A stretch of DNA of 40,864 nucleotides from an uncultured Verrucomicrobiota bacterium (GTDB lineage: Bacteria; Verrucomicrobiota; Verrucomicrobiia; Methylacidiphilales; Verrucolacustridaceae): assembly GCA_903956835.1 (NCBI GenBank), contig CAJBOM010000065.1, forward strand, positions 1 to 40,864, given 5' to 3'. Below, piece by piece: positions 382 to 26,805 of this stretch (position 1 is its first letter; each line of letters begins with the position of its first letter). Under the pieces are notes generated by a model, which had not been told where the DNA came from, did no database searches, and was given only the letters and a program-made list of their open reading frames with translations. The translations under genes were made by a program, and so were the position numbers.

Positions 382-442
382 CAAATTAAACTTACTGTAT
401 TCTTATTCAGGATAGTTTTTGGAAGTTTGAAGTTTTATAGAA

Positions 443-462: not shown

Positions 463-503
463 AATTTGGAATCATAATTCTTTTTTTAAATTAGTCCAAC
501 CCG

Positions 504-1553: not shown

Positions 1554-1573
1554 CCACCCCCACCCATTCCTGC

Positions 1574-3732: not shown

Positions 3733-3734
3733 AA

Positions 3735-4979: not shown

Positions 4980-4982
4980 TCA

Positions 4983-6254: not shown

Positions 6255-6258
6255 TTCA

Positions 6259-8235: not shown

Positions 8236-8258
8236 CAATCTAGATTGAGTTTCTTCTT

Positions 8259-9227
8259 ATGAAAAAAAATCCCGTTCAACCCGCGCGCCAAGAAGTTTCT
8301 CCAAGCAAAACCACCGCCAACCAGAAATCTTCCTCCGGAAAACCACGAATTATCGACAGCCACCAACATGTTTTCTGGCATGGCCGCAATGATCGGGAGT
8401 TGATCGCAGACATCGATGCTGCAGGGATCGACTTGAGCTGGCTTCTGACGTGGGACATTGCCCCTTGGGAATATGTCCCTGGACATAACGAGTGGCTCAG
8501 CCCACTCAATCGCCGAGCGGACGGGACGGTAGCTGGCGTTACCCTAGCCGATGTCCTGCTGGCCCGTGACCGGTATCCGCAACGGTTCATTGCAGGCTAC
8601 TGCCCTCATCCCATGAGCTATGAACCCTGCGCCGCACTCCGCACGGCGGTGAAGATGTACCAAGTGAAAGTATGCGGAGAATGGAAATACCGCATGCCCT
8701 TCGATGATCCCCGCTGCATCGAATTATTTCGGACTGCGGGGGAACTAGGCCTCCCCATCGTTTTGCATCTCGATTATGCTTGGCTCCCAGAGTCCAAAGG
8801 ACGCCCAGCATATCGGCCCTACTGGTACGGCGGTAATCATGACAACCTAGAGCGGGCCCTCCAAGCGTGTCCTCAGACTCGGTTTATCGGCCATGCCGCA
8901 GGATTCTGGCGTGGAATTTCAGCCGATTTCGATACGAATCCTGAGATGTATCCAAAGTCGCCCGTCACGGGTCCAGGTGTCATCCAACGGTTATTCGATC
9001 GGTACGAAAACCTCTCGGCTGATCTTTCGGCAGGATCTGGACTAGGCGCACTCCAGAGGAGTCCGGAATTCTCTCGGAAGTTTCTCTGCGACTATTCGGA
9101 ACGCCTTCTGTTTGGAAGAGATTGCTATGGCACGGAGCTCCTCGATGCCTTGACGGCTATGGATCTTCCGCCTGCCGTCTCTGCGGCCATCTTAGGCGGC
9201 AACGCCCAAAGACTAATTCCTTCTTAA
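8259..9227 (+). CDS. Amidohydrolase family metal-dependent hydrolase (Amidohydro_2-like)
   Basis: A 322-residue TIM-barrel hydrolase. Metal-binding elements are visible in order: HxH in DSHQHVF (His35, His37), a His in IVLHLDYAW (His170), a His in FIGHAAGFW (His212), and the late Asp in LLFGRDCYG (Asp288). The end ILGGNAQRLI is typical of Amidohydro_2 proteins. The family hydrolyses lactones, amides or C-C bonds. In sugar clusters such proteins are often lactonases acting after a sugar dehydrogenase, which would suit the oxidoreductases nearby, but that is inference. It is the third gene of the aminotransferase-heparinase operon and lacks a signal peptide. It converges on the pseudopilin gene with a 26-bp gap and no obvious terminator. 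Confidence 0.85.
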   Translation: MKKNPVQPARQEVSPSKTTANQKSSSGKPRIIDSHQHVFWHGRNDRELIADIDAAGIDLSWLLTWDIAPWEYVPGHNEWLSPLNRRADGTVAGVTLADVLLARDRYPQRFIAGYCPHPMSYEPCAALRTAVKMYQVKVCGEWKYRMPFDDPRCIELFRTAGELGLPIVLHLDYAWLPESKGRPAYRPYWYGGNHDNLERALQACPQTRFIGHAAGFWRGISADFDTNPEMYPKSPVTGPGVIQRLFDRYENLSADLSAGSGLGALQRSPEFSRKFLCDYSERLLFGRDCYGTELLDALTAMDLPPAVSAAILGGNAQRLIPS

Positions 9228-9253
9228 CTCCGATTTTGCGTACTCTCCGCAGT

Positions 9254-9943
9254 TCAATAAGCTAGCTCGGGTCCAGTGCCCTTCCAAAATCGGTTGGTCA
9301 CACTGGCTCTACAACTATCGAATACGGTCATGGGCACACGTCCAACATGCCCATCGCAGTAACCCACATTCACAAACTCTTTGTGCCTCTTTTTTAGAGC
9401 TGTAATCCGTGATGCTTTGCTACCTGTTACGGTGTTCTCTACAATCGTCCAGTGCTCCTCAAAATCCATCGTTAGTGCTGTTGCACTTGGATACATGATA
9501 CGAGCCATTTTCACACCACTCATATACCCATTCTGGCCGTAACTAACGCCCATGTAGGGTCCATAGACCCCATTGCTGACCGTCCCGTATTTGTCCGCAG
9601 GACAGACCAGAATTTTCGTGCCTTTATTTGTTCCGCCAAGGTACGGGATAATCGACATAACATACGAGGTACCCCAATTCGCATCATTTTGAGGAAATTC
9701 CCCGTCATTATCCGCTGCGCAGCTAAGTGAAGCAGCCCCGATCTGTTGCAGATGTCCCACGCACGCCCCTTGGTCCGCCGAGGCGCGAACTCGCGCCAGG
9801 GCCCCCAAAGACAAGCCAGCGAGCAGACCAATGATCGTGATCACGACCAGCAATTCCACCAAGGTAAACCCAGACCGAGCCAACCCAGTCCACACGGAAT
9901 CCACGCGACTGGAACGATCTCCATCCTCATCGCAGATTTTCAC
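9254..9943 (-). CDS. Type II secretion pseudopilin-like secreted protein
   Basis: A 229-residue protein with a prepilin leader of 25 residues ending RSG, followed by FTLVELLVVITIIGLLAGL. Gly(-1), Phe(+1) and Glu(+5) are all present, as PilD-type peptidases require. The C-terminal domain has a few Cys residues and the late GYCDGHVG element (H..DG type) common in pseudopilin-like proteins of Verrucomicrobiota and Planctomycetes. It may be assembled by a type II secretion or pilus machine, or stay anchored in the inner membrane. The start is GTG at 9943, which overlaps the stop of the DUF4838 gene (GTGA), so the two proteins are coupled. It is the last gene of a four-gene operon, whose order recurs in permuted form at 26903-34467. 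Confidence 0.85.
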   Translation of the reverse strand: MKICDEDGDRSSRVDSVWTGLARSGFTLVELLVVITIIGLLAGLSLGALARVRASADQGACVGHLQQIGAASLSCAADNDGEFPQNDANWGTSYVMSIIPYLGGTNKGTKILVCPADKYGTVSNGVYGPYMGVSYGQNGYMSGVKMARIMYPSATALTMDFEEHWTIVENTVTGSKASRITALKKRHKEFVNVGYCDGHVGRVPMTVFDSCRASVTNRFWKGTGPELAY

Positions 9944-11895
9944 GGTTTTTTCTTTTTAGCTGGAGGGGTGTACTGCAATACGGCTGATTCTTGAGGTGAT
10001 TTACCCAAGAAATCACCAATGGTGGCGTGCCACTGCCTCATCCCATACTCAATGGTGATGGCCAGTAATCCCTCATCCAAAGCAAAGGTGCTCTTCTGGG
10101 TATTGAGCATTTCAATCCGCTTTTGGCCTAAATCCCATGCACGGAGAAGCCACTCGTCTTTTTCCGCCAAGGTATAAGGGAAGGTCTGCTGTTGAAGTTT
10201 TTCAAAAAAATCTCGTGAGACATCGAAATCGGGTACCGCCGTAACCTTCCTCGGTGCACGAGCCGTTGCCTCCCACTCAAACGCTTCCATGGGAAAGCCT
10301 GTTCTCCCCAATTTAGCATAGAGCCCCAGGAGCTCCGACATAAGGGAGGTGTACTCGCAACCCACCCGCAGAAAGGAGATTCTTTTTTGCAGTTCAAGAT
10401 CAGTGCCCGCTGCCTTTTGCGCTTCGTCAAGGCAGAGTCCAGCCCGTGTCAGCTGTTCCGGGGAAAACATTTTAGGGATCGCGTTAAGGATAACGACGTA
10501 GCGGCCATCGATATCCAGCTTGCGCCAACTTTCGCGGGTAGCCTGGAGAAACACCTCGTGATACCGACGCACGGGATCAGCCGCCACCCCAAAGGCACTG
10601 TAAAACTCCTTCTCTAAATCACCGACTTTCCGATCCGGATCCCAAAGAAGATGGGTCACGACATAGTAGTTGAGCGCCATGTTCGAAAAGTTTTTTCCCG
10701 TTTCCCCATAAGCCCCGATCATTCCAGCCTTTCTTGCTTCGGTAATCGTCGTGGCGATTTCTTCAGGATAGAGAAATGGAAGATCCATCCAGTAATGGGT
10801 GCCCCAATATTCGCGCATGATAATTTTCACTCCCTTGGTTTTCCAAGAGCGAACGAAATCTCGGTATTCCTGAGCTCCCTTTTCCGAAAGGAGCATGGTC
10901 GCATAGGTTGTCATCGAGAGGTACACGTTGTCGGGCAGGGTCGGAATTTTGCTCGGAGGTTGCCGACCCACGGTGTAGGCAAACGTGCCGATCCCCTTTT
11001 TCGGTCTCTCCTTTTTCATCCGCAGTGCCATATCATTGACAAAGTCCCAATAGGCGTCGCCCGTAGTGCCCTTGGCCTGACAAAGAGGGCATTCGCAGAA
11101 TCCGTATCCATCGTTGGCTGAAACTGAGACAATATCCAAGCCTGATGTGTCCGCCGCTTCTAGAAGATTTTTAAAGAATTCGTCCCGGAGTTCAGGTTTC
11201 GATTCACAGAGTTGGGCAGGATTTCTTTTTCCACCGACCAAAGCGAACCAGTCGGGGTGAGCCGAAAAGTAAGTCTCCTTTGGAATCATATGGGACCAAG
11301 CGTGACCAAAGTTGGCCTTCAACTGATCCCCTTGGCGAGTTCGCCGCACCCAACGGGCCAGTTCTGGTTTCAGCTCAGCCCAGAAGCGGGCGTAGCCGAA
11401 TTTTAATAACCGCCGTTTGAATTCAGGAGTCCCGCCCTCCTTGATGGGGGGGAGCACAAGTTGCGGGCAGACGGGTATGACCTCGCCACTGGCTCCTGGC
11501 CACAACCAGCGAACCCCGCAATATTTCTCCAGGAAAACCGAAACGGCGTGACCCACCCCTTGGGCATCGCCCCTTAGGCAAACCCCTTGGTCATTAGATT
11601 GTAGAGCCCATGTTTCCTTAGGCACTTCTCCCTCCAGTTGAAAAAGAAAAGCTAACCCCGCCCCAGTATCTTCGGCGACGATGGGCAGGGATCGTCCGGT
11701 TGCTTTTTGTAGATGGTACTGCAGGTCTTCTGCAGATTGTTGGAGCGTACCACTAGCTCCCTTGGCCATCACAATTTGATCGAAGTCAGCCAGATTCTGG
11801 GAAGCGGCACCTGCCTGGGAAACCCCCAGTAAAGCAGTGGCTTGGATAAGGCGAAAGAGCGTTACTTTACAAACGGTGGATGTTTTTAAAAACAA
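9940..11895 (-). CDS. Secreted DUF4838 protein, paralogue 1
   Basis: A 651-residue protein with a signal peptide (about 1-31, ending AGAAS). Residues about 35-150 resemble the alpha-glucuronidase/GH20 N-terminal-type domain that precedes DUF4838 ('LQYHLQKATGRSLPI', 'VSVFLEKYCGVRWLWPGASGE'). The DUF4838 region follows, with SVSANDGYGFCECPLC near 257-272 (Cys267, Cys269, Cys272), REYWGTHYW with Glu362, and GAYGETGKNFS with Glu398. The two Glu residues are shared with the paralogues at 19542 and 31125 and are candidate catalytic residues. Function of the family is not established; a glycosidase-like role on polysaccharide is inferred from the fold and setting. The start ATG at 11895 is 33 bp after the previous gene. 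Its stop overlaps the pseudopilin start. Confidence 0.88.
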   Translation of the reverse strand: MFLKTSTVCKVTLFRLIQATALLGVSQAGAASQNLADFDQIVMAKGASGTLQQSAEDLQYHLQKATGRSLPIVAEDTGAGLAFLFQLEGEVPKETWALQSNDQGVCLRGDAQGVGHAVSVFLEKYCGVRWLWPGASGEVIPVCPQLVLPPIKEGGTPEFKRRLLKFGYARFWAELKPELARWVRRTRQGDQLKANFGHAWSHMIPKETYFSAHPDWFALVGGKRNPAQLCESKPELRDEFFKNLLEAADTSGLDIVSVSANDGYGFCECPLCQAKGTTGDAYWDFVNDMALRMKKERPKKGIGTFAYTVGRQPPSKIPTLPDNVYLSMTTYATMLLSEKGAQEYRDFVRSWKTKGVKIIMREYWGTHYWMDLPFLYPEEIATTITEARKAGMIGAYGETGKNFSNMALNYYVVTHLLWDPDRKVGDLEKEFYSAFGVAADPVRRYHEVFLQATRESWRKLDIDGRYVVILNAIPKMFSPEQLTRAGLCLDEAQKAAGTDLELQKRISFLRVGCEYTSLMSELLGLYAKLGRTGFPMEAFEWEATARAPRKVTAVPDFDVSRDFFEKLQQQTFPYTLAEKDEWLLRAWDLGQKRIEMLNTQKSTFALDEGLLAITIEYGMRQWHATIGDFLGKSPQESAVLQYTPPAKKKKP

Positions 11896-11928
11896 GCTAA
11901 GAACCTCTTTCTGTTCTGTGTCCCAGCG

Positions 11929-12696
11929 TTAGCCATCCTTGGCCGTCGCTGCCTGGATGATGATATTGCCGAATTTAACAAAAGGTGTTTTCACTCCATC
12001 GCTACTTCCTTCCGCATAGATCCCGACGGCCGTCACTCCCGACAGCTTGGGTTTAAGTTCGGCGGAACCGATTTTGTCCAAACTGCTGGCAGGATCGTAT
12101 GGATACCATTGAAGGGAAGACGGGTCGGAAATGGCCACAGGGAAACGTCGGGTGCCAGAGGAAATACCCAGCTCGGAGGAGATAAGATATTGCGAACCCA
12201 ACTGGACCACCAGACGCGTAGAAACCACGATGCCGCTTCCTCCCCAAAAGTTAAAAGAAATCGGAGTCTTGGCATTCAGGGTCACTTCCCCTGTCTTCAA
12301 GGCAAGAAAATCCTCTTGTTTCCATAAAACAAGTAGACGGACCTTGCCAGTAGGGTCGTGCGCAGACGCAGAGAAATAATCCGGTTCAGAAGACTTACCA
12401 CCATCAGCGATTTTGCAGGGACCCAGCCCACCAGTCCCCGTGGCACTCGCTCCCCCGTAGAATTTTGAACTCGGCAGAGCCGTGTTGTAATGGGCCGTGG
12501 GAGAGAGAAAGTTTTGATCAGAAAAAGTCATCGTGGGGGCGCCATCGACCCAACCCGTAAAACATTGCCAGTTGCTGGCCGTATAAATGGGAGAATTAAA
12601 ATTAACGATCACGGGACCCGCCGTACCTAGAGATGGCAGTGAACCTAGGAGCCCGGTGAGAAAAACCCGTCTCCATAAGCAGAGGTTAGGCTTCAC
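11929..12696 (-). CDS. Small secreted beta-rich protein of unknown function
   Basis: A 255-residue protein with a signal peptide (about 1-26, ending GTAG). I do not recognise a named family. The mature part alternates short hydrophobic strands with Gly/Ser turns (KVRLLVLWKQEDFLALKTG, GIVVSTRLVVQLGSQYLIS, KLSGVTAVGIYAEG, KFGNIIIQA). This pattern suggests a jelly-roll or carbohydrate-binding-like sandwich. The start is GTG at 12696 and overlaps the stop of the upstream glycosidase-like gene (GTGA), so the two are translationally coupled. In the parallel cassette at 26903-34467 the equivalent slot next to the DUF4838 gene holds a LamG-like sandwich protein, which supports a binding role. That role is inference. 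Confidence 0.7.
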   Translation of the reverse strand: MKPNLCLWRRVFLTGLLGSLPSLGTAGPVIVNFNSPIYTASNWQCFTGWVDGAPTMTFSDQNFLSPTAHYNTALPSSKFYGGASATGTGGLGPCKIADGGKSSEPDYFSASAHDPTGKVRLLVLWKQEDFLALKTGEVTLNAKTPISFNFWGGSGIVVSTRLVVQLGSQYLISSELGISSGTRRFPVAISDPSSLQWYPYDPASSLDKIGSAELKPKLSGVTAVGIYAEGSSDGVKTPFVKFGNIIIQAATAKDG

Positions 12697-15332
12697 TTGG
12701 GTCCACCTTCGCTCAGCAGGCGGAGAAGCTCTCTCTTGGCCTCGTCAAGTTGATGGGTCGTGGCCGTCAACACTGTTTTGGGATAAGGCATATTTCCGAC
12801 CATCTCCTCCTTCATTTTTAACCCATAGGGCGATTTTTCCCCAACTACACTTCCCAAGAAAGCATCGGCCTTGCTCAGCCACTCTTTCTTGGAAGGATCG
12901 CTTTTAGCCACATCCACAGCCGACTGGAGCATACGGAGATAGACCGCATCGGCATATCCGGCTTGGATCCCCATCCCAGAAGCGCAGTTGATTGCCTTGT
13001 CCCCATCAAAAAGGACCAAGCGGGCGTAGGTGTAAAAATCCACCCCATCCAGTCCTTTAGTCCAAACCTCCCAAAAAACTTTCCGAGTATAAAAAGAAGG
13101 AGACTTATAATAACCCCAACTGCCGTAAGTTCCGATCAGGGTCCCCTTTTCTAGGGTGACTTCCCTTGCCTGTTTCCATTTCTGAAACTGATCGATAAAA
13201 TGCACATTCAAAATAAAGGACCGGCAAAGAGGGGCTATTTCATTCATCATAGCAGCCGAGGCGGCTTTACCTGTTGGATTGGTTTCAGGCATCCAGCCCG
13301 CTGCGGACGTGAGCTTGGCCATCGGCAACCAAATAGAATGCATTTCCTCCACACCAAGTTCGTCTCCAAATTTAAAGGTAAACTGACGAAATCCCTTTTT
13401 CTCCAAATAGCTTTTGAATTGAGTCCATATATCCACAAAAGATTTTCCCCAAGATTCGGAAAGGTTGGTACTTCCCGTAAGTTCAGTGATGTAGTTCCCA
13501 CCTTTTATCACCATGGCTCCAGCTCCATGGCGAATGTTAACCCGTGAAAAACCCAGGTCTCGAGCAACTTGGATCTGTTCGTCGTACCCCGAAAAATCCA
13601 GCTCGGGGAGGGTACCGTCAGGCTGGGCAAAAGCCTCTGTTTTACCAGCTTGGCGATTTGCGATGATTGTCTTGAGGGGGACCCCGGTTGATTTTACGCG
13701 AATATTTTGCAGCGTGATCGCGCCATCCACCACCCCATCCCCGCCCAGCTCTCCCATGTTCCGGAGTAAAGGAGTTGCTCCTGATACTGAAAATTTGATG
13801 TCTTTCGCCTTGCCCACCGCCACGGGAAATGCGCGGGGAAAGGGTCCAAGCCAATTGAATCCGTAAAAACCAAGATTCAGCCCCAAGGAACGGTTGAAAG
13901 GTACCGGCCATATCTTAAGAGTTACAGGAAGGACTCGCGAAGTTTCTCCTGATTCCATTACAAGCTGGTACTGATATTCTCCTGGCGCCATCGATGCGGT
14001 CTGCGCTCGGATCCAAAGGATAGCCGTCTTGCCCGCAGCCAAGCCCCCTCCTGTGTTTGGCAGAAGCCAGAACTCCTCTGCCGCTGGATCTGGTTCTCTG
14101 GGTGAAACCGCCGAAATTAATTTCTGGACGATGGATTTGTCTGCAGGTTCCGTGGGTGCTGCTTTCGATACTTCCGCACCCATCGCGGTGACCGCAACTT
14201 GGCGGAAAAAGGTAAGCGCTTTTTCTGGCGCCCCCTTCTGCGGTTCCAAGCGAAGGCGAAGCGAGGGGAGTTCCTCCGTGGCTGTTAGATTGACAAAAGT
14301 ACTGGCAATTTCCCCCTGTCCCGTGTCGATCCGCAGTTCACGAACAACCTCACTCGCTTCGGGTTGTGTCGGGCTAAAACGTGGACGCCCCGCCGTCATA
14401 TGGTAACCGTAAATCGATTCATCCGCCACCGCATCCCTTTGCCAAACCACCCAACGATCTCCCGCGGGCAAACCTAAATGCGCTGGAGTTGCCACGGGGG
14501 TGGATGGGGAAAGCGTACGCATCATCCCTTGGATTCCTTCAAGAAAGATAGAGCCCCGAGTGATACCAGACTGGGTGGCATTCGCTCTCGCTTCCGTAAT
14601 TTTTTGGATCTTTTTTTCCAGTGCATCCTTCGCGGCAGGTTCGGTGGTGCGGGCCAGAGAATTTTGCAGTTGTTTGAGCCGCGGTTCACTCGCATGAACC
14701 GCATCGACATGCATCACCCGAAAAAGCATGGTTCCGATGAAGATCACGCGACCCATTCCAACTCGTTGTACCGCAATAATTGCACTCGTCCCATCTGTCA
14801 CAATGGGCTCTGCCGTGGTCAACCCCTGAAATACTATAAAATCCTTACCCCACCCAGAATCTGGTTCGGCACTTTTCGGCCAGAGGTCTTGCTTATCGGA
14901 TAGGTGATAATTCGCCAGACCTTTAGCACTCACCACTCGGGCGGTTCCCAGCCAGTCTGCCCAAGGAGGGACTTTGCCTCCCACCATTGGGACTAGGCTG
15001 GAGAGGACCGAATCGACGAGAATAAGATTACCCCCCCCAGAAAGAAATGCCTTCACCGCTTCGGCATCCTCCGGCTGTAACTGCCCAGGAGATTTTGGAG
15101 CAATCAGCACACTTTGGTAGGCAGACCAATCCTTTGGAGGTACCCAAGTGGCGGAGTATTGAAAGCCGATCTGCCCAGGATTAAGGACAGACAGAACCCA
15201 TTTGTCACACTCATACTTTCCATACTCCACCCCCATCAAAAGCACCGGTTTCTCGCCCAGGACCAAACTTGGTCCTAAAAACAAAACAACCATCAACGAA
15301 ATACAAGCAGTTCGGAACCTTATCCTTGACAT
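12693..15332 (-). CDS. Large secreted glycoside-hydrolase-like protein (DUF4091-type C-terminus)
   Basis: A protein of 879 residues from ATG 15332, with a signal peptide MSRIRFRTACISLMVVLFLG cleaved near VLGE. The N-terminal part ('VLIAPKSPGQ', 'VKAFLSGGGNLILVD') resembles the glutamine-amidotransferase-like or trimerisation-type domain that often accompanies beta-galactosidase-like enzymes. The central part is beta-rich. The C-terminal third has a TIM-barrel-like run (RVNIRHGAG, FTFKFGDELGVEE, then YGSWGYYKSP and GLDGVDFYTYARL) like DUF4091 glycosidase-like domains. The Glu in FGDELG is a candidate catalytic acid; not certain. A longer frame starts at TTG 15368, but that would run through the palindromic regulatory site, and the ATG gives a clean signal peptide. 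It leads the operon. Divergent from the oxidoreductase operon. Confidence 0.8.
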   Translation of the reverse strand: MSRIRFRTACISLMVVLFLGPSLVLGEKPVLLMGVEYGKYECDKWVLSVLNPGQIGFQYSATWVPPKDWSAYQSVLIAPKSPGQLQPEDAEAVKAFLSGGGNLILVDSVLSSLVPMVGGKVPPWADWLGTARVVSAKGLANYHLSDKQDLWPKSAEPDSGWGKDFIVFQGLTTAEPIVTDGTSAIIAVQRVGMGRVIFIGTMLFRVMHVDAVHASEPRLKQLQNSLARTTEPAAKDALEKKIQKITEARANATQSGITRGSIFLEGIQGMMRTLSPSTPVATPAHLGLPAGDRWVVWQRDAVADESIYGYHMTAGRPRFSPTQPEASEVVRELRIDTGQGEIASTFVNLTATEELPSLRLRLEPQKGAPEKALTFFRQVAVTAMGAEVSKAAPTEPADKSIVQKLISAVSPREPDPAAEEFWLLPNTGGGLAAGKTAILWIRAQTASMAPGEYQYQLVMESGETSRVLPVTLKIWPVPFNRSLGLNLGFYGFNWLGPFPRAFPVAVGKAKDIKFSVSGATPLLRNMGELGGDGVVDGAITLQNIRVKSTGVPLKTIIANRQAGKTEAFAQPDGTLPELDFSGYDEQIQVARDLGFSRVNIRHGAGAMVIKGGNYITELTGSTNLSESWGKSFVDIWTQFKSYLEKKGFRQFTFKFGDELGVEEMHSIWLPMAKLTSAAGWMPETNPTGKAASAAMMNEIAPLCRSFILNVHFIDQFQKWKQAREVTLEKGTLIGTYGSWGYYKSPSFYTRKVFWEVWTKGLDGVDFYTYARLVLFDGDKAINCASGMGIQAGYADAVYLRMLQSAVDVAKSDPSKKEWLSKADAFLGSVVGEKSPYGLKMKEEMVGNMPYPKTVLTATTHQLDEAKRELLRLLSEGGPK

Positions 15333-15368
15333 AGATACCAGTTGGAGCCAGTTGGTAATATATGTCAA
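15326..15368. promoter_or_regulatory. Nested palindromic operator in a 61-bp divergent region
   Basis: Perfect outer arms TTGACATA (15326-15333) and TATGTCAA (15361-15368) enclose inner arms TACCA (15336-15340) and TGGTA (15353-15357). The inner block includes TACCAGTTG at 15336-15344, the same 9-mer as in the GntR/aminotransferase region, and a related copy on the other strand. The site fills most of the gap between the start codons at 15332 (minus) and 15394 (plus), so one protein bound here could block both operons. The left TTGACATA overlaps the minus-strand ATG. No convincing -10/-35 pair was found. Confidence 0.55.
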
Positions 15369-15393
15369 CCCAAACTTTCACACACCCAATCCC

Positions 15394-16296
15394 ATGAACG
15401 TTTTCCGAATCGGTATGGTTGGGTTGGATACCTCCCATGTGCCCGCTTTCGCAAATCTCCTGCACGACACATCTCATGAACACCATGTGCCAGGGGCGCG
15501 CATCGTGGCCGCTTTTCCAGGGGGATCTCCGGATTTCGAAATGAGCATCAACCGCGTGCCGAAATACACCGAGGAGATGAGAGATAAACACCAGGTCGAA
15601 ATCGTTAATTCACTTTCCGCTCTTCGAGGAAAATGCGATGCCCTAATGCTGGAAAGCATCGACGGACGGGTCCATCTTGCACAATTCCGCGAAGTGGCCG
15701 ATTGGGGAGTACCCGTCTTCATTGACAAGCCGTTGACCGTGTCGACCTCCGAAGCGAGGGAGCTGGTGAGGATTGCCAAAGAAAAGAAAGTACGAATGAC
15801 CAGCGCCTCCGCCATGCGCTTCGCGGCAAGTTTCCAACAGGCGTTGCATGCGGACACAGCAGAACCGGTGATCGGCGGGGATTTTTATGGCCCCATGCAA
15901 TGGCAGGAGAAGTGCCCTGGATATTTTTGGTATGGAATTCACACGGTTGAAATGCTCTTTGCAGCAATGGGAACCGGCTGCTGTGAAGTGCACTCTTTTC
16001 GAGAAGAGTTGCACGATGTCGTAGTCGGTCGATGGACGGATGGACGATTGGGTATGGTCCGTGGCAATCGCGCGGGAAATCCTGGTTTCGGCGGGGTGAT
16101 CCATAGGAAGAACAAAAGTTTCGCCTTCGACGTTTCCACGGGCACGAAGCCGTTTTACGCAAGCCTGCTCGAGAAGATTATTCCTTTTTTCAAAGGACAA
16201 GCAGAGGTCGTCCCACCGGCAGAAATGATCGAAGTGATCGCCTTTCTTGAAGCCGCCAACCATAGTGCAACCTCCAAACAAAGGGTGATCCTATGA
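15394..16296 (+). CDS. Gfo/Idh/MocA oxidoreductase 1
   Basis: A 300-residue protein from ATG 15394. The N-terminal Rossmann strand is unusual: FRIGMVGLDTSHVPAF (residues 4-19) replaces the normal GxGxxG with GLDTSH, a form seen in a subgroup of the family. The conserved substrate/cofactor block is FIDKPLT (Asp111-Lys112-Pro113) instead of EKP. The C-terminal half has an alpha/beta sheet domain with WYGIHTVEMLF, in which the His of GIHTVE is the expected catalytic position. The family oxidises or reduces sugars and derivatives with NAD(P). The 192-bp longer frame from 15202 would read through the divergent gene and is rejected. It leads a run of four oxidoreductases; 61 bp separates it from the next start. 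No signal peptide: cytoplasmic. Confidence 0.85.
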   Translation: MNVFRIGMVGLDTSHVPAFANLLHDTSHEHHVPGARIVAAFPGGSPDFEMSINRVPKYTEEMRDKHQVEIVNSLSALRGKCDALMLESIDGRVHLAQFREVADWGVPVFIDKPLTVSTSEARELVRIAKEKKVRMTSASAMRFAASFQQALHADTAEPVIGGDFYGPMQWQEKCPGYFWYGIHTVEMLFAAMGTGCCEVHSFREELHDVVVGRWTDGRLGMVRGNRAGNPGFGGVIHRKNKSFAFDVSTGTKPFYASLLEKIIPFFKGQAEVVPPAEMIEVIAFLEAANHSATSKQRVIL

Positions 16297-16357
16297 ATTT
16301 CAAACAAGTCCGATGGATCGCAAGGTTATCTCTTCTTAAAGTGGAGCGACTTTTGTG

Positions 16358-17410
16358 ATGAAAAGCCTTTCCCCCTTGTCCACCCCTGTCCGTGTCGGAA
16401 TCCTTGGCTTGGGTCGTGCGGGTTGGAACCTGCACTTCGAACCCATGCGCAAGCTAGCCGGTTACCAGATCGTCGCCGTGGCTGATCCCCTACCCGAACG
16501 CGCTCAAGAAGCCGCCAGTTTGACCGCTTGCCAAACCTTCTCTTCCTTGGACGAACTGCTCGCCAAATCCAATGCCCAGCTCGTGGTGGTCGCAACCCCT
16601 ACGGCAACCCACTATCAGGATTGCCTCAGAGTCCTACGTGCCAAACGCCACTGCATCGTTGAAAAGCCGATGGCCCTCACCACCGAAGAGGCAGCCGAAC
16701 TGGTGTCCCTCGCCCGTAGCCATGGACTCGGACTTTTCGTGCACCACAACCATCTCCACCTGCCCACCTATCATCATCTCAAAAGCATCATCGATCAAGG
16801 GATGCTGGGCACCCTGTTTTCCATTCGGGTCTTCTGGGGAAACTACGCCCGAAGATGGGACTGGCAGACCCTCCGAAAAAATGGAGGTGGCCAGTTGAAC
16901 AATACCTGTCCCCACGTTCTCTCGGTGGTCCTGCCGCTCCTCGGTTCTCCTGTTCGTCGGGTCTTCGCCGATCTGCGAAACATCAAGGACGCGGGTGACG
17001 CGGAAGATCATGTCCACATGGTGCTTCAAACGGAATCTGGAGTGACCGCCGACATCGTCGTTTCCTCCGCCATCGCTTTGTCAGGACCAAAGTGGATGCT
17101 CTGCGGTAGTCGCGGCACCCTGATTTCAGACGGAGAGAAAAGCAAACTACGCTTCTATGATGGGACAAAAGTGGAGCCCCTCAACGTCATCGATGCAGCC
17201 GCCCCTGGACGGAAATATTTGAGTGAAACTCTGCCGTGGGAGGAAAAAGAACTTCTGGCCTCACCTGCACCCGTGAAACCCTTTCACGAGAATGTCCTCG
17301 ATGTCCTTACCACCCGGGTCCAACCCATCGTCACACCGGAAAGTGCCGCTGAGGTCGTCCGGGTTATGCAGGAGGTACGGCGGGCGGCGCTGTCCAAGAC
17401 TCAGAAATGA
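16358..17410 (+). CDS. Gfo/Idh/MocA oxidoreductase 2
   Basis: A 350-residue protein from ATG 16358; a GTG directly before it would add one Met only. GGAG at 16343-16346 is a possible ribosome-binding site, though 11 bases away. It has a canonical GILGLGRAG (residues 14-22) and VEKP (Glu102-Lys103-Pro104). The Rossmann domain spans about 11-125 and the C-terminal domain has NGGGQLNNTCPHVLSVVLPL, in which the His lies at the expected catalytic site. It is a standard NAD(P)-dependent sugar oxidoreductase. The stop overlaps the next ATG (ATGA at 17407), so it is coupled to oxidoreductase 3. Substrate unknown. It differs clearly from oxidoreductase 1, so the set is not a recent tandem duplication. 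Confidence 0.9.
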   Translation: MKSLSPLSTPVRVGILGLGRAGWNLHFEPMRKLAGYQIVAVADPLPERAQEAASLTACQTFSSLDELLAKSNAQLVVVATPTATHYQDCLRVLRAKRHCIVEKPMALTTEEAAELVSLARSHGLGLFVHHNHLHLPTYHHLKSIIDQGMLGTLFSIRVFWGNYARRWDWQTLRKNGGGQLNNTCPHVLSVVLPLLGSPVRRVFADLRNIKDAGDAEDHVHMVLQTESGVTADIVVSSAIALSGPKWMLCGSRGTLISDGEKSKLRFYDGTKVEPLNVIDAAAPGRKYLSETLPWEEKELLASPAPVKPFHENVLDVLTTRVQPIVTPESAAEVVRVMQEVRRAALSKTQK

Positions 17411-18396
17411 AAAAAATTGCTCTCCTTGGATATCGCCATATTCACATTGCGGATCTTAAAAAGCGTGCCGAAAACCACCCACGGGTCTCCTTCGTCGCGC
17501 TCTGTGAAGAAAACCCCGCCACGTCCCTTCTCTCCAGCGACAAAGCGACGGCCACCCATCAGAATTTCGAATCTCTCCTGCGTGAGGTTGATTTTGAAAT
17601 CCTCGGTTTAGGGGATTGCTACGGGAAACGTGGCCACCAAGCCATTCGGGCGTTGGAGGCCGGCAAACACATCTTGGCCGACAAACCCCTCTGTACCAAC
17701 TTGGCCGAGCTAAAGAAGATCGAACAGCTGGCCACGAGCCGATCCCTTTCCGTTGGATTGATGCTCGATCAGCGGGACCACGGGAACATGATCCGCCTAC
17801 GCGAAATAGTCCGCTCGGGACAAATCGGCGAGATTCAAACCGTGAATGTCACCGGTCAGCACCCTCTGCTCCAAGGGAAACGCCCAGACTGGTATTTCGA
17901 ACCTGGCCTGCACGGTGGAACTCTCAACGACATCGCCATCCACGCCCTCGACCTTATCCCTTGGATCACGGGGCTGGAATTCTGCGGAGTGGATGCCGCG
18001 AGAACTTGGAACGCCAAAGCAAAGTTTGCACCGCATTTTCAAGATTGTGGGCAGTTTATGCTCCGCCTTTCCAACGGCGGGGGGGTGATCGGCGATGTCT
18101 CTTACCTTGCGCCAGACACTTGTGGCTACGAACTCCCCCAATACTGGCGCTACACTCTCCATGGCACCCGTGGCATGGCAGAGACTTCATGGAAAACAGA
18201 CGGGGTAACCGTAGTGAATGACTCCGACTGGAAGCCCCAACTTTTTCCTCCCTCGCCCACTCGTTCGGGAGGATATCTCGAGGATTTTCTGGACGAGATT
18301 GAAGGCCGACCCCGTCTGGATGGGTTGACCACCGCCAAGGTCTTGGCGGCGACCCGGCTGGCCTTGGAACTCGAGGCCAAAGCCCAACTCCAGTGA
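17407..18396 (+). CDS. Gfo/Idh/MocA oxidoreductase 3
   Basis: A 329-residue protein coupled by ATGA to oxidoreductase 2 and by GTGA to oxidoreductase 4. The nucleotide-binding start is degenerate (KIALLGYRHIHIADL, residues 3-17). The conserved block is LADKPLC (Asp92-Lys93-Pro94). The catalytic-type region is GLHGGTLNDIAIHALDLIPW, with a typical H-x-x-D ending. The shift from GxGxxG to GYRHIH means NAD(P) binding may be weaker or altered; the fold otherwise matches the family. It probably acts on a sugar or polyol derivative in the cytoplasm. Neighbours point to one pathway with several redox steps. Which step it does cannot be told. Confidence 0.88.
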   Translation: MKKIALLGYRHIHIADLKKRAENHPRVSFVALCEENPATSLLSSDKATATHQNFESLLREVDFEILGLGDCYGKRGHQAIRALEAGKHILADKPLCTNLAELKKIEQLATSRSLSVGLMLDQRDHGNMIRLREIVRSGQIGEIQTVNVTGQHPLLQGKRPDWYFEPGLHGGTLNDIAIHALDLIPWITGLEFCGVDAARTWNAKAKFAPHFQDCGQFMLRLSNGGGVIGDVSYLAPDTCGYELPQYWRYTLHGTRGMAETSWKTDGVTVVNDSDWKPQLFPPSPTRSGGYLEDFLDEIEGRPRLDGLTTAKVLAATRLALELEAKAQLQ

Positions 18397-19487
18397 AGGC
18401 ATCCCCCATCCGTTTTGCCATTATCGGGTCCGGAAATATTGCCGAGAAACACGCCCAGGCCATTGCTGCCGTTCCCGGCGCTAAACTCATCGCCGTTTGG
18501 GGCCGAGACCCAAACCGCGGTCGCTCGTTCGCCAAAACCTTAGGGGTAGATTTCGTGACCGACCTAGCATCCTTAGCTGCGCGAGACGACTTGGACGCGG
18601 CAACCATCGCCACCCCCAGCGGTGTTCATGCCGAAAGCTCCCTCCCCTTTCTCCGTCAAGGCAAGGCCGTCCTTTGCGAAAAACCTCTCGAGATCACCAT
18701 GGAAAAAGCCGATCTGATGATCGACACTGCACGGGAGCATGGGGCCATCCTTGCGGGAGTTTTCCAACAGCGCCTAGGAGTTGGCGCTCAAGCGATGAAG
18801 AAAGCGGTCTGCGATGGACGTTTCGGAACAATCACCCTCGCGAGTGCGCAGCTCAAGTGGTGGCGTGAACAGGCGTATTACGACTCCGTTTCCTGGCGAG
18901 GGACCCTCTTGCTCGATGGGGGCGGGGCTCTCATGAATCAGGGAATCCACGTCGTCGATCTACTTCAGTGGTTGGTGGGAATGCCAAGTGAGGTCTTTTC
19001 CTACTCCGCTTGTTTGGCTCACAAACGGATCGAAGTAGAGGACACTGCGATCATCGCCCTCCGCTATCCCAGTGGCGCCCTTGGCACAATTGAAGCCTCG
19101 ACCGCCTGCAAGCCCGGTTTCGCAATGCGCATTGAGTTGTGTGGAGACAAAGGCTCCGCCGTACTCGAAGACGATCGGATCGCCCGCTGGCAGTTCGACG
19201 ATGAACGACCTGAGGACAAATCGGTCCGCACCATGGGAAGTGGTGCGATCGTTGGCGGCTCGGGCGACCCTCGCGCTATCGGTTTCGAAGGCCACCGGAT
19301 TCTCATTGAAGACCTTGTCGGGGCGATCCATGAAAAACGCTCGCCCATGATTCCAGGAAGCGAAGCGCGTAATGCCGTCCAACTAATCCTTGCCGCATAC
19401 GAATCCGTCCGGTCCGGAAAACCCATCCGATTGCCTCAACTCAAGAAGCACGCCCATACCAACTCTATGGGTGGCACGAAAAAGTGA
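18393..19487 (+). CDS. Gfo/Idh/MocA oxidoreductase 4
   Basis: A 364-residue protein that starts with GTG at 18393, overlapping the stop of oxidoreductase 3. It has canonical AIIGSGNIAEKH (residues 9-20) and CEKPLE (Glu96-Lys97-Pro98), followed by GGGALMNQGIHVVDLLQW near 175, whose His is the usual catalytic residue. The Lys-Pro and His pair support normal NAD(P)-dependent activity. It closes a run of four coupled genes, all of the same family but not close copies. A 54-bp gap then leads to the DUF4838 gene, where GC content and ribosome-binding style change. Substrate unknown; it may work with the aminotransferase at 4983 on keto-sugars, which is inference only. Confidence 0.9.
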   Translation: MKASPIRFAIIGSGNIAEKHAQAIAAVPGAKLIAVWGRDPNRGRSFAKTLGVDFVTDLASLAARDDLDAATIATPSGVHAESSLPFLRQGKAVLCEKPLEITMEKADLMIDTAREHGAILAGVFQQRLGVGAQAMKKAVCDGRFGTITLASAQLKWWREQAYYDSVSWRGTLLLDGGGALMNQGIHVVDLLQWLVGMPSEVFSYSACLAHKRIEVEDTAIIALRYPSGALGTIEASTACKPGFAMRIELCGDKGSAVLEDDRIARWQFDDERPEDKSVRTMGSGAIVGGSGDPRAIGFEGHRILIEDLVGAIHEKRSPMIPGSEARNAVQLILAAYESVRSGKPIRLPQLKKHAHTNSMGGTKK

Positions 19488-19525
19488 GTCCTGTCGGTTT
19501 AGTCATGCACAATTCATGTTTTTTA

Positions 19526-19533
19526 AAGAAAGG
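19526..19533 (+). promoter_or_regulatory. Shine-Dalgarno-like site before DUF4838 paralogue 2
   Basis: AAGAAAGG ends 8 bases before the ATG at 19542. Among the plus-strand genes here it is one of the few convincing ribosome-binding sites, which fits the view that this gene has a different history from its neighbours. Confidence 0.55.
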
Positions 19534-19541
19534 TTAAAGTT

Positions 19542-21563
19542 ATGTCGAAAATAAAAAATAGCCTGTTTTTATGCCTATCTGTCGTAATAGCAGGAGATAT
19601 TTCTGCGCATGCCGCTTCTGGGTTGATCATAAAACAGGGGCAAGCTTTCAAGATTGTTTACCCTGAGAAAGCCCTGCTTGTGGAAAAAACTTCTGCTGAA
19701 GAACTTTCTCAATATATTCGGCAGTCCACCGGGGCACGGACAGAAGTACTCTCAGAAAATAACCTAGAAACAAAGGATGCTGCCGACGCCTATATCGGGC
19801 AGTGCAGTTTCACGAAAGAACAAGGTTCTTATGTAAAGAGCTTCAAACAGGAAGAGTTCATGATTACGGCAAGTGAAGGCAAGCTCTTCATCTACGGAGA
19901 TGACGGAACAGGGAGTCCCTTTGCCCAGAATACAAGAACTGGAACGCTTTTCGGAGTGTATGATTTTCTAGAAAAAGAGGTTGGGGTGGCCTGGATCTGG
20001 CCAGGTAAGAGCGGTGAAGATGTGCCGAATCGAAAAACATTTCAGGTTGCTTCGTTTTCCAGGAGGGACAGTCCACGCCTCTGCTACCGCGGATTTAAGT
20101 TCTCCGCTGCATATAAGGAATCAAAAGAGTTTAAAACTGATCTTAGTTATTGGTTTAAGCGGATGAAACTGAGTTGGATACCTCAGGCCTGGTTTGGTCA
20201 CAGTTGGGGAAACTATATGGTGAAAACAGGAATGGATAAAAAACATCCTGAATGGCTGGCATTATGGGGAGGAACAAGGAGGAAACCGCAGTACTGCACA
20301 TCCAACAAGGACTTTCGGGATTATATTGTGGACCAATGTCTGCACAATCCAATCAACAAGGACAAATGGATTGTTTCGGTATCACCGAACGATGGCTATG
20401 GCTTCTGTGAGTGCGACAAATGCCGAGCCCTTGACCCCGCTAACACTGATTATACATCAGATATCCCGAATTTATCCAACCGCCATTGGGATTACGCTAA
20501 TTATGTGGCCCAAGAGGTAAAGAAACAAAGGCCTGGCCTGAATGTCGGGATGTTGTCCTACACCGCCTATAGTAGTCCTCCTACGAATATCGCAACGATG
20601 GAAGATAATCTTTTTGTCTCCCTGTGCTTCTCCGCGTCCTATTGCGTTCTTCCGGAAAAGAAAAAGCGTTTTTATGAGGACATTCTCTTATGGAAATCAA
20701 AAGGTGCAAAGTTCGTTATAAATGAATATTGGGGGATGCATTACTGGTTAGATTTGCCCTACATATTCACCAAACAAATATCCGAGTTCATGCCACTTAT
20801 CTATAAGAATGGCCTGATTGGAATGGGCGGGGAAGCGCAGAAGAATTTCTCTACCCAAGGACCCAACTACTATCTCGTCTGCCATTTAATGTGGAACCCG
20901 GAAGACAATTCCGAACAGATCCTCCATCGTTACTACGAGGCTTTCGGTCCTGCGGCGAAGTATATCAGGAGTTATTACGACACCTTTGAGACCTCCATTC
21001 TGGAAAACCAGAAATGCGATTTCGCGTACCTACATTTAATCAATTCATGGCCTGAAATATTTCCGCCAGCGACAATCACCAAGGCCGAGGAATGTCTCAA
21101 GAAGGCTCAAGATGCCGTGCAAGCCAGCCCGATTCATGCCGAGCGCGTGAAACTAGTTGCCATCGGCTTTGAATACACCAAAGACATGGTTGAACTACTT
21201 CGCATCTACAGAACCCTGGGAAGAGCTGGGGTTCCCCTTTGGTTCTTCGGTTATCAAGGGGCCTTAGCAGAGATGAGTTACTGGAAGCATTTACCAGAAA
21301 TGCCTGCTTCCTGGACCCAGTTCTGGAAACAGCATCCCGACGAACCGATCTCCCAGGTAGAGAAGTTGAAGTTACTGAGGCGCGCCTATGACCTCGGAAA
21401 TGAACGAGAAAGAATAGTAAATGAATATGCGGATCGGCCCATCGTATCACTGGGAATGTTTAACCACTTCAAAACAAATGGACTCTCCCCATGGCAACAG
21501 ACCATAAAACAGGAGCTTGAAAAAGAAGGCATTACTGTTGGGGCAGATCCGAAGCAGAAATAA
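19542..21563 (+). CDS. Secreted DUF4838 protein, paralogue 2
   Basis: A 673-residue protein with a signal peptide (about 1-25, ending AHAAS). The N-terminal domain has SAEELSQYIRQSTGARTEVL and LFGVYDFLEKEVGVAWIWPG, as in paralogue 1 at 9940. The DUF4838 region carries VSPNDGYGFCECDKC (Cys289, Cys291, Cys294), NEYWGMHYWLDLP and GMGGEAQKNFS, so it keeps both candidate Glu residues. It is clearly homologous to paralogue 1 along the whole length. Sampled 60-base blocks have about 38-47% GC, against about 60% in parts of the preceding oxidoreductase gene. No pseudopilin gene lies next to it. Enzymatic function of the family is unproven; a polysaccharide-processing role outside the cytoplasm is inferred. 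Confidence 0.9.
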   Translation: MSKIKNSLFLCLSVVIAGDISAHAASGLIIKQGQAFKIVYPEKALLVEKTSAEELSQYIRQSTGARTEVLSENNLETKDAADAYIGQCSFTKEQGSYVKSFKQEEFMITASEGKLFIYGDDGTGSPFAQNTRTGTLFGVYDFLEKEVGVAWIWPGKSGEDVPNRKTFQVASFSRRDSPRLCYRGFKFSAAYKESKEFKTDLSYWFKRMKLSWIPQAWFGHSWGNYMVKTGMDKKHPEWLALWGGTRRKPQYCTSNKDFRDYIVDQCLHNPINKDKWIVSVSPNDGYGFCECDKCRALDPANTDYTSDIPNLSNRHWDYANYVAQEVKKQRPGLNVGMLSYTAYSSPPTNIATMEDNLFVSLCFSASYCVLPEKKKRFYEDILLWKSKGAKFVINEYWGMHYWLDLPYIFTKQISEFMPLIYKNGLIGMGGEAQKNFSTQGPNYYLVCHLMWNPEDNSEQILHRYYEAFGPAAKYIRSYYDTFETSILENQKCDFAYLHLINSWPEIFPPATITKAEECLKKAQDAVQASPIHAERVKLVAIGFEYTKDMVELLRIYRTLGRAGVPLWFFGYQGALAEMSYWKHLPEMPASWTQFWKQHPDEPISQVEKLKLLRRAYDLGNERERIVNEYADRPIVSLGMFNHFKTNGLSPWQQTIKQELEKEGITVGADPKQK

Positions 21564-21743
21564 TGCATAGAACAACTTTCAGCATGGTTCCCACTGGGCT
21601 TGAACAGAGGAGCGGATCGTGGCACTCAATGGAGAGGGTCCACTCCCACGCTCACCCCGACGACTACCGGATTCAGCCAAGGGAAGAGTAGGCAGATTGA
21701 AACCCTTCGATTTGGAACGATTGAGAGGAAAAGCAAGGCAGGT

Positions 21744-23018
21744 ATGAGCTTAAGGTTTATCAACGGTCGTGAATCAATACGGGACCCGATTCAACCTGAT
21801 ACTTTTAGCGTGATTATTGCCGGGGATTGTTGTCCGTGGGAGAACTCCATTGAAACAATCCGCGATGGCAAGGCAGCGCAGATTATTTCCAGTGTAAAAC
21901 CATTCATTGACTCCGCCGACCTGAAAATAATCCAATTTGAGTCCCCGCTGACGAACAACGACACCCCCATCGATAAAAGCGGGCCTAATTTGAAATGTCC
22001 GCCGGAATGTATTGATTTGGTGCGGGCTGGCGGTTTCGACGTGGCCTTGCTCAGTAATAATCATATCGGCGACCATGGCTCGGCCGTGGTCATGGAAACG
22101 ATTGAGCATTTTAAGGCCGCTGGCATAAAAACCGTGGGAGCAGGGAAAGACCTCGCCACGGCACGCATTCCATTAAAGGTTGAATGCAAAACCATTCAGA
22201 TTTCGATTCTTAATTTTGCCGAAAACGAGTTTGGGATAGCTGGAAAGGATAGCGCGGGATGTGCCCCGCTTAATCCGATTGAGAACATACAAGCCATCAA
22301 GAGGGCCGCGCAATCTGCCGACCTGGTATTTGTGGTTGTCCATGGCGGCCACGAACGTAATCCCCTGCCTTCCCCACGCATGGTCAGTGCTTATCGCGCG
22401 TTTGCCGACGCTGGTGCATCCATCGTAATGAACATTCACCCCCATTGCCCTGAAGGAATTGAATTATGGAATGGCGTTCCTATCGTTTATTCGCCTGGGA
22501 ACCTCTTCTTCCCATGGTCCGATTTATCTTCCGACCATTTAAATGCGATGTGGTGGATTGGCTATTTACCCAAGTTTACCTGTGACCGTAAGGGTGTCTA
22601 TGCCATCGAGTTAATGCCCTATCGGTTCGACAATGAACGCATGCATTCATTGCCTCCTGATGATACAGAGAAGTTTTTTAACTATATGTCAGCTCTGTGC
22701 AATCTCATTAGTGATCCAGAAACAATTCAGAGCTACTTCGACGCATGGTGTGCTCATGAAGGTTCTAAATATCTATCTTGGATTCGTGACCGACTTGCAA
22801 AATGGCCGATAGAACTCAATTCTCGTGAGGCCGTGCGGGAATTATTGCCAGTTCGCAATATGTTCACTTGTGAAGCACACAATAATATGATCACCACCTA
22901 TTTGCGGCTGGTCGAGGAAGGGCGAGTGCCTCAAGCATTAGAAGGTTGGCCAAAAATAGAAATACTTCAAAGTCCTGCCTGGGCTCAGAAGTATTGGGAA
23001 AAGCTTCAAATTCATTAA
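21744..23018 (+). CDS. CapA-like PGA capsule protein family metallophosphatase fold
   Basis: A 424-residue protein from ATG 21744, with AAGG five bases upstream of GTATG. The frame extends to TTG 21600, but the added part looks non-coding. Family blocks of the CapA/PgsA calcineurin-like fold: IIAGDCCP (25-31), QFESPLT (64-70, with Glu66), LLSNNHIGDHG (102-112, Asn106-His107), VVVHGGHE and NIHPHCPEGIELWNGVPIVYSPGN. The metal-site Asp, Asn and His residues are present. CapA proteins are linked to poly-gamma-glutamate polymers; here no other capsule genes are visible, so the true substrate may differ. No signal peptide or membrane anchor is seen, which is unusual. It follows the low-GC DUF4838 gene. 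Confidence 0.85.
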   Translation: MSLRFINGRESIRDPIQPDTFSVIIAGDCCPWENSIETIRDGKAAQIISSVKPFIDSADLKIIQFESPLTNNDTPIDKSGPNLKCPPECIDLVRAGGFDVALLSNNHIGDHGSAVVMETIEHFKAAGIKTVGAGKDLATARIPLKVECKTIQISILNFAENEFGIAGKDSAGCAPLNPIENIQAIKRAAQSADLVFVVVHGGHERNPLPSPRMVSAYRAFADAGASIVMNIHPHCPEGIELWNGVPIVYSPGNLFFPWSDLSSDHLNAMWWIGYLPKFTCDRKGVYAIELMPYRFDNERMHSLPPDDTEKFFNYMSALCNLISDPETIQSYFDAWCAHEGSKYLSWIRDRLAKWPIELNSREAVRELLPVRNMFTCEAHNNMITTYLRLVEEGRVPQALEGWPKIEILQSPAWAQKYWEKLQIH

Positions 23019-25422: not shown

Positions 25423-26805
25423 CTAAAGTGCCGGACGATAGCATTCACCCAACAGATCTCGGATCTGGTAAGATCGCCCATCCTGAGCCGATCGCCAGAT
25501 CGCTTCCCCCGTGGCAATGGCCAAAGCTCCCGCATAACTGTCGGAGGAGAGCTTCAGTCGGAGACTTTTATCGTTCGGGCCGAGAAATAGGTCCCTGCGA
25601 ATCACTGGATCCGCACCACCATGCCCCCCCGGGGCCACCGGCACGTCGTACTCTTCGCGACCACCAAACAACGGCCAAACGACGATCTGATCCTTGCTGG
25701 GTTCCCCCGAGCCGGCTCCCGTAGGATCGGTATAGTAACGATGACTGACCTCAAGGCGTCCGCGAGTTCCATTGATGGCCAAGGTGTACCCTTCCCAGGG
25801 TGCGGAGAAGTTGATTGAATAAGCCAGCGAGGCACCGTTCCGATACCGTATGACGGAAGAATACGTGTCCTCAATATCGATGGCTTCGTCGTAGATATAA
25901 TTATCCAGCGGATACTGTTCGGCATACGGTAACTCGAGTTTATCCCAACCGGGTCGAACGCGCTCCGAGGGTTTATCCCCTCGCGGAGCATAGTGGGTTT
26001 GAAAATAGGGGCACGCTTGCCGAACTTCCGTAAGAGTAAGCTTACGACCGTCTGGAGATTTGGGGCGGTGTGCTCCGTGGGGCCCGTAATAATTTCGCGC
26101 ACCAAAGGCGAAGACCGTTTCTGGAGGAGAATCGATCAGCCAACTGATTAAATCAAGGTGGTGAACGGATTTGTGGATGCTCAACCCGCCTGATTTCGAC
26201 CGCTCACGATTCCATCGATAAAAGTAACTTGCCCCATGAAAAGTATCGAGGTTGTAAGCATATTCTATGTTGGTGGGCCGCCCTATCTTGTTTTCCAGCA
26301 GAAGCTCTTTGATGCGACAATTAATGTCGGTGTAGCGACAATTGTGGGCAACCACCAGAGAGCCTCGGCTTTTCTTTTCCGCAGCGAGCACTTGACGGAT
26401 TTGCTCAGAGTTAATCACAGCGGGCTTTTCTGCGATTACCCGCAAATCATTTCGCAAACCGGCTAAAATATATTCGGCGTGAGTAAAGTCGGGTCCAGCA
26501 ACCAACAGAACATCGGGATGAGTCTCGCGAATCATGGCCTCGACCCCTTGGGTCGGCGTGAAACTTGGAATCGAGAGCCCCAGTTTCTTCTGAAATTGCT
26601 TAATCCGCTCCAGATCTAGATCGAGAATACCCACCACTTCGGCTTGATCCCGGAAATCGCCCGCATCCTGCGTATCGGCTCTGCCCAGAAGGGGAAGCAA
26701 AAAATGATAAATACCCCGCACACTCAAACCGCAAATTGCATAGCGAGTTTTCCTACTAGGAGTCATTTCCGGCGAGTGCTGGGCAGTGGGGTGAACAAGA
26801 CTCAT
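25423..26805 (-). CDS. Gfo/Idh/MocA oxidoreductase 5
   Basis: A 460-residue protein, longer than the usual 330-400. The Rossmann part has RYAICGLSVRGIYHF (21-35) and VIAEKPAV (Glu126-Lys127-Pro128). The catalytic-type region is KSGGLSIHKSVHHLDLISWL. An extra segment of about 60 residues follows (GPHGAHRPKSPDG, then a run around YFQTHYAPRGDKPSERVRPG and YIYDEAIDIEDTYSS), which is typical of the longer members of this family in Verrucomicrobiota and Lentisphaerota. It is unlike the four oxidoreductases at 15394-19487. The ATG at 26805 lacks a clear ribosome-binding site; an internal ATG at residue 14 is also possible. A palindrome lies 43 bp upstream. Forms an operon with the threonine-aldolase-like gene. 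Confidence 0.88.
   Translation of the reverse strand: MSLVHPTAQHSPEMTPSRKTRYAICGLSVRGIYHFLLPLLGRADTQDAGDFRDQAEVVGILDLDLERIKQFQKKLGLSIPSFTPTQGVEAMIRETHPDVLLVAGPDFTHAEYILAGLRNDLRVIAEKPAVINSEQIRQVLAAEKKSRGSLVVAHNCRYTDINCRIKELLLENKIGRPTNIEYAYNLDTFHGASYFYRWNRERSKSGGLSIHKSVHHLDLISWLIDSPPETVFAFGARNYYGPHGAHRPKSPDGRKLTLTEVRQACPYFQTHYAPRGDKPSERVRPGWDKLELPYAEQYPLDNYIYDEAIDIEDTYSSVIRYRNGASLAYSINFSAPWEGYTLAINGTRGRLEVSHRYYTDPTGAGSGEPSKDQIVVWPLFGGREEYDVPVAPGGHGGADPVIRRDLFLGPNDKSLRLKLSSDSYAGALAIATGEAIWRSAQDGRSYQIRDLLGECYRPAL

Follow-up and report, generated by a model that had tools for sequence, protein, structure and literature searches.

Why does a freshwater Verrucomicrobia genome carry four adjacent genes of a single oxidoreductase family, and do their products serve one pathway? 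The window, by which we mean the whole 40,864-nucleotide stretch of DNA that we analysed, contains at 15394-19487 a run of four Gfo/Idh/MocA genes, all on the + strand (G1 to G4), and a fifth gene of the family on the opposite strand (G5):

15394-16296, +, G1: divergent Gfo/Idh/MocA protein of the GLDTSH / DKP / WYGIH subfamily (ATG start, 300 aa)
16358-17410, +, G2: Gfo/Idh/MocA oxidoreductase with normal GLGRAG and EKP motifs (350 aa)
17407-18396, +, G3: Gfo/Idh/MocA oxidoreductase of the GxRHxH / DKP subfamily (329 aa)
18393-19487, +, G4: Gfo/Idh/MocA dehydrogenase, nearest in sequence to WlbA (GTG start, 364 aa)
25423-26805, -, G5: Gfo/Idh/MocA protein with a long insert (460 aa)

Re-reading the coordinates and motifs bore out the four genes, positions, 4-nt overlaps and motifs described in an earlier, sequence-only reading of this DNA. 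G2 and G3 share 4 nt (17407-17410, ATGA), as do G3 and G4 (18393-18396, GTGA), and 61 nt separate G1 from G2. All four proteins exceed the 24-bit cut-off for PF01408, the N-terminal NAD-binding Rossmann domain (38.7 bits for G1, the weakest, and 94 bits for G2). A C-terminal family domain (PF02894 or PF22725) is matched by G2, G3 and G4; G1 matches neither of these two, although its structural model matches members of the family over the N-terminal and the C-terminal domain alike. The catalytic Lys of the E/DKP motif (DKP in G1 and G3, EKP in G2 and G4) and the downstream His are present in all four genes. The nucleotide-binding starts differ: GLDTSH in G1, GLGRAG in G2, GYRHIH (GxRHxH) in G3 and GSGNIA in G4, so that GxGxxG/A, which is typical of the family though not universal in it, is present in G2 and G4 and absent from G1 and G3. 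The 2.17-Mb genome has 15 places matching PF01408, five of them inside the window and four more on another contig, C166. The run is not due to chance, yet clusters of such genes are not rare in this genome. A second set of four Gfo/Idh/MocA genes lies on C166 (9412-18557, G000), with a DegT gene nearby, and in the tree G5 falls together with a paralogue that this genome carries on contig C130.

The four genes are not a recent expansion. Pairwise identity among their products is 16-27% (local BLASTP), and in a tree of their homologues and the genome’s own paralogues they fall into four separate clades with 98-100% bootstrap support, each of which includes members from other families of Verrucomicrobiota; together, the identities and the clades rule out recent tandem expansion. 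The sequence-only reading had proposed four different family members, with phylogenetic placement as the check and grouping as one recent expansion as the contrary outcome; the tree instead places them in distinct subfamilies. The nearest solved relative of G4 is WlbA (3q2k, E 7e-52, full length, phmmer), and G4 also matches a chain of glucuronide 3-dehydrogenase (8tdi, E 2e-27). The nearest solved relatives of G2 (3e18) and of G3 (2p2s and 3u3x) are uncharacterised, and a search of PDB sequences returned no full-length solved relative for G1. None of the four reaches an NCBIfam equivalog cut-off. The best NCBIfam score of G4 is to TIGR04380 (inositol 2-dehydrogenase), and the fold that best matches G1 is that of 4hkt, a putative myo-inositol dehydrogenase; however, the TIGR04380 scores (145 bits for G4, 85 for G2, 64 for G3 and 19 for G1) fall far below the 355-bit cut-off, which rules out IolG membership, and no other inositol genes were recognised in the window.

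The suspicion that the first and third enzymes, lacking the normal dinucleotide motif, may work differently holds in part. In both, the glycine motif is replaced by a conserved one: G10, D12, S14, H15, D111 K112 P113 and Y180 G181 H183 are invariant in a 33-row alignment of the G1 family, and G8, H11, H13, E34, D92 K93 P94, D175 and H179 in a 21-row alignment of the G3 family. At the position of the third glycine or alanine of the canonical motif, five residues past the first glycine, both families have a His (G10/H15 and G8/H13), and they align with each other in profile comparison. Because the replacements are conserved within each subfamily, we reject decay of the two motifs. As regards G3, the oddity is not unprecedented, since its solved relative 2p2s has G-L-A-H-N-H at the same place, and G3 retains Lys93, Asp175 and His179 as well as E34, the invariant acidic residue after strand 2. 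G1 keeps Lys112 and His183 but lacks the canonical Asp, and after strand 2 it has a conserved PGGS and no acidic residue; since the canonical NAD ribose-binding acid is missing, its redox role is putative. The AF2 model of G1 (pLDDT 96.8) matches Gfo-family dehydrogenases, including inositol dehydrogenase, GenD2, KanD2 and GnnA.

What surrounds the run? Several further genes in the window bear on the question:

4947-6254, +, DegT/DnrJ/EryC1 aminotransferase, hereafter DegT (TTG start at 4947, or a start further on, for example at 4983; PF01041, 266 bits)
6211-8235, +, heparinase II/III-like protein, between DegT and the amidohydrolase (PF07940, 44.6 bits)
8259-9227, +, amidohydrolase-2 metal-dependent hydrolase or decarboxylase (PF04909, 35 bits)
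9940-11895, -, DUF4838 protein (PF16126, 142 bits)
19542-21563, +, DUF4838 protein related to GH163, the next gene after G4 (PF16126, 146 bits)
39629-40375, -, NagB-like protein, divergent and glucosamine-6-phosphate deaminase-like (PF01182, 63 bits)

DegT has its PLP-binding lysine in a GGK motif conserved in the aligned rows, and its nearest solved chain is that of a sugar aminotransferase (7b0m). The amidohydrolase has invariant metal ligands (H35, H37, H170, H212 and D288, that is, HxH, two His and Asp) and a TIM-barrel fold matching decarboxylases and lactonases alike, including 2-pyrone dicarboxylate hydrolase, so that the fold does not separate the two activities; against PDB sequences, the single sequence found nothing and a profile gave weak matches only. 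The NagB-like protein carries LDEYFG and a second motif of 14 residues, and a stronger NagB copy is found on contig C78 of the genome. DUF4838 has been annotated as GH163 (PMC9870897), and the Pfam scan, which covered 30 window genes, recognised three DUF4838 proteins in all, together with LacI/GntR regulators, a beta-helix protein, an acetylesterase, AXE1, a CapA-like protein, PLP enzymes and an acetoacetate-decarboxylase-like protein. The sole Pfam match of an 891-aa protein at 12693 is a weak one to DUF4350, and for a 1169-aa protein (26903-30412, -) Pfam gives nothing, even with the threshold relaxed to E 1. Immediately after two of the three DUF4838 genes comes a gene whose small product carries an N-terminal methylation motif resembling that of type IV pilins (9254-11895; 30409-33665, -). 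At the pilin-like gene, a stretch of about 60 bp (9812-9872) has copies of 77-89% identity in several genomes of the same genus and is perhaps a conserved pilin signal sequence.

Here, DegT and the amidohydrolase lie in a separate operon, 6-10 kb from G1. The earlier suggestion that the run might work with these two genes is nevertheless supported by conserved neighbourhoods in other Verrucomicrobiota. Using G1, G3, G4 and the amidohydrolase as queries, we searched 388 genomes of Verrucomicrobiota, some of which have dozens of candidate Gfo/Idh/MocA places, and counted pairs lying within 6 kb. The G3-G4 pair was observed 13 times against 0.19 expected, always on the same strand and in nine genera of four families; the counts were 9 against 0.14 for G4-amidohydrolase, 6 against 0.32 for G1-G4, 4 against 0.22 for G1-amidohydrolase, 4 against 0.12 for G3-amidohydrolase and 4 against 0.27 for G1-G3. 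Linkage among the four is thus about 15-70 times above expectation, in counts from related genomes that are not independent events and against expectations that are rough. Of 19 loci with the amidohydrolase, 9 have a DegT gene no more than 3 kb away from it, compared to about 0.5 expected on the basis of 6-30 DegT genes per genome. Near-complete operons (Amid, amidohydrolase; GDH, glutamate dehydrogenase) read DegT-Amid-DegT-G4-G1like-GDH (L138), GDH-G3-G4-G1-DegT (L061), GDH..DegT-G3-G4-DegT-Amid (L117), Amid-DegT-Amid-DegT-G1-G4 (L067) and DUF4838-DUF4838-Amid-G4-DegT (L135), and L118 was also counted as one. In L135, a 38% relative of the window’s DUF4838 protein at 9940-11895 stands beside the amidohydrolase, G4 and DegT. 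The GDH, of about 1000 aa (PF00208, 88 bits), is present at four loci among those retrieved (L061, L076, L117 and L138). Of 39 loci with a G1 homologue, 6 also have a NagB-like relative no more than 3 kb from it. In a plasmid of Spirosoma (Bacteroidota), a homologue of G1 (38%) stands ahead of a further Gfo gene, nagA, DUF5009 and TonB/SusD genes, and in a Haladaptatus plasmid a relative of the amidohydrolase comes after a heparinase II/III gene, the same pairing as in the window.

Since relatives of three of the four enzymes recur elsewhere in the phylum beside an aminotransferase, a metal hydrolase and an enzyme that releases ammonia, these dehydrogenases probably catalyse steps of an as yet uncharacterised pathway for the breakdown of an unusual amino sugar. 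Our preferred reading, to which we give slightly less than even confidence, is more specific: the run would supply the redox steps of a module that breaks down an unusual amino sugar or amino-uronic acid in the cytoplasm, and that module would be encoded on an accessory island for polysaccharide degradation. Gene order, family membership, the catalytic residues and the linkage across genomes are observed directly; it is from gene neighbourhood and precedent that we infer the pathway itself, with its substrate, direction, step order and any role of G2. Extracellular lyases, esterases and the DUF4838 (GH163-like) hydrolases would release the sugar; DegT, a PLP enzyme, would transfer the ring amino group to 2-oxoglutarate, leaving a keto-sugar; the WlbA-like G4, and probably G3 too, would reduce or oxidise that or a neighbouring ring carbon with NAD(H); and the amidohydrolase would open a lactone or remove a carboxyl group. 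In relatives, regeneration of 2-oxoglutarate, with release of ammonia, would fall to the glutamate dehydrogenase encoded in the same operon.

Precedent comes from systems in which a Gfo enzyme is paired with a DegT enzyme for oxidation at C3 and transamination of the resulting keto-sugar, namely WbpB/WbpE (PMC10622841), GnnA/GnnB (PMC7663294) and GenD2/GenS2 (PMC4340712). WlbA/WbpB with WbpE (UDP-GlcNAcA 3-dehydrogenase and 3-aminotransferase) resembles the window in this pairing, and WlbA and G4 align over their full length and share an EKP and MNQ..H active-site signature; however, the characterised enzymes are biosynthetic and act on UDP-sugars, whereas the neighbours in the window are degradative and include no UDP-sugar enzymes. 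GenS2 and GenD2, supplied with 2-oxoglutarate and NAD(P)H, also run in reverse, converting the 3''-amino group to a 3''-hydroxyl (PMC4340712). GenD2/GenS2 and KanD2/KanS2, both from aminoglycoside pathways, thus set a dehydrogenase and an aminotransferase to work on one ring carbon, and the G1 model matches the GenD2 and KanD2 folds; these systems, however, belong to antibiotic biosynthesis, and the structural matches share only 16-18% identity with G1. The degradative setting, the GDH and the NagA/NagB-like neighbours make the reverse, deaminating direction the better reading. The catabolism of GlcNAc by NagA/NagB is a further point of comparison, since the window encodes a NagB-like protein, G1 homologues elsewhere have NagB-like neighbours and one has nagA nearby; standard NagA/NagB breakdown, unlike the module proposed here, is not known to need DegT or Gfo enzymes.

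Several observations count against the module. No relative of the large GDH was seen in the window genome, and DegT and the amidohydrolase belong to a separate operon here. G1 stands in many loci without other module genes, as G3 often does (DegT lies within 3 kb in only 3 of 20 G3 loci), and G2 is without close relatives in the module, the homologues beside G1 elsewhere reaching only about 30% identity. The earlier reading is thus supported in part: the oxidation, isomerisation and reduction of a sugar ring that it offered as an example, like a single pathway shared by all four enzymes, is hypothetical.

Could the four enzymes instead handle 3-keto-glycosides? Here, C3 of a glycoside or uronide would be oxidised, the 3-keto compound cleaved by elimination and its product re-reduced by another Gfo enzyme, with DegT being incidental. 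Gfo enzymes are common in pathways of this type, and the match of G4 to glucuronide 3-dehydrogenase (8tdi, E 2e-27) fits, as does the levoglucosan pathway, which proceeds through oxidation, elimination, hydration and reduction (PMC7676230). However, none of the 30 scanned window genes belongs to the sugar isomerase/epimerase (PF01261) or 3-keto-disaccharide hydrolase families, and the conserved DegT and GDH partners are left unexplained; we regard this route as unlikely. We give an equally low chance to there being no shared pathway at all, that is, to four generic dehydrogenases for different sugars gathered in a polysaccharide-utilisation island: that G1 and G3 occur in many contexts without each other, that contig C166 has another group of four and that the island is accessory all speak for it, but the reading frames overlap here and the linkage of G1, G3, G4 and the amidohydrolase recurs in other genera. 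A biosynthetic cluster for an amino sugar or aminocyclitol running in the amination direction, like WbpB/WbpE or GnnA/GnnB, is very unlikely: while G4 is nearest to WlbA, and DegT scores with LegC and other biosynthetic families (all below their NCBIfam cut-offs), the 30 window genes scanned include no member of a glycosyltransferase, N-acetyltransferase or nucleotidyltransferase family, the neighbouring genes encode LacI/GntR regulators, esterases, lyases and DUF4838 hydrolases, and the linked GDH and NagA/NagB-like genes point to deamination.

The catabolic module may have a wider bearing. Gfo/Idh/MocA genes are many in Verrucomicrobiota and their roles mostly unknown; the recurring partners (DegT, amidohydrolase, GDH and NagB-like) turn anonymous dehydrogenases into a testable pathway, and suggest that chemistry known from the making of amino sugars also serves their breakdown. 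A bolder version, which we think rather doubtful, is that of a widespread, undescribed Verrucomicrobiota pathway for sugars with the amino group away from C2 (e.g. 3-amino or amino-uronic sugars), in which the Gfo and DegT chemistry by which antibiotics and O-antigens are made is reversed and G1 is cofactor-divergent, its GLDTSH and PGGS loops defining a new way of binding the dinucleotide or of doing without it. The enzyme families are known, but their combination appears undescribed in the literature searched: in the full text of open-access papers, we found no description of it.

Is the island a genuine part of this genome? Positions 1-19557 are covered at about 95% nucleotide identity by two overlapping contigs of a second species of the genus (G010), and about 36.0-40.8 kb matches a third species at 87%. 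Given these matches, a chimeric or foreign contig is unlikely: the contig seems authentic and its island an accessory one, present in just 2 of the 21 species of the genus. Among 20 other genomes of the genus, G1 occurs in one, the sister G010, which was also the only genome returned by a search for related loci with G1. Among named genomes, the closest is a Verrucomicrobia subdivision 6 MAG.

The near-identical locus of G010 (L086, near 5630) lacks the DUF4838 and CapA-like genes of window positions 19557-22952; there, the beginning of the DUF4838 gene runs straight into the last CapA codons, with a short A-rich repeat at the junction, as if 3.4 kb had recently been deleted in G010. A stretch of about 46 bp covering the last codons and stop of G4 (19449-19495) has copies of 85-87% identity in other genomes of the genus (G016, contig C35, and three contigs of G008), all outside any G4 homologue. 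The tail of G4 may be the leftover of a mobile element; the copy in G016 lies near a transposase-like reading frame.
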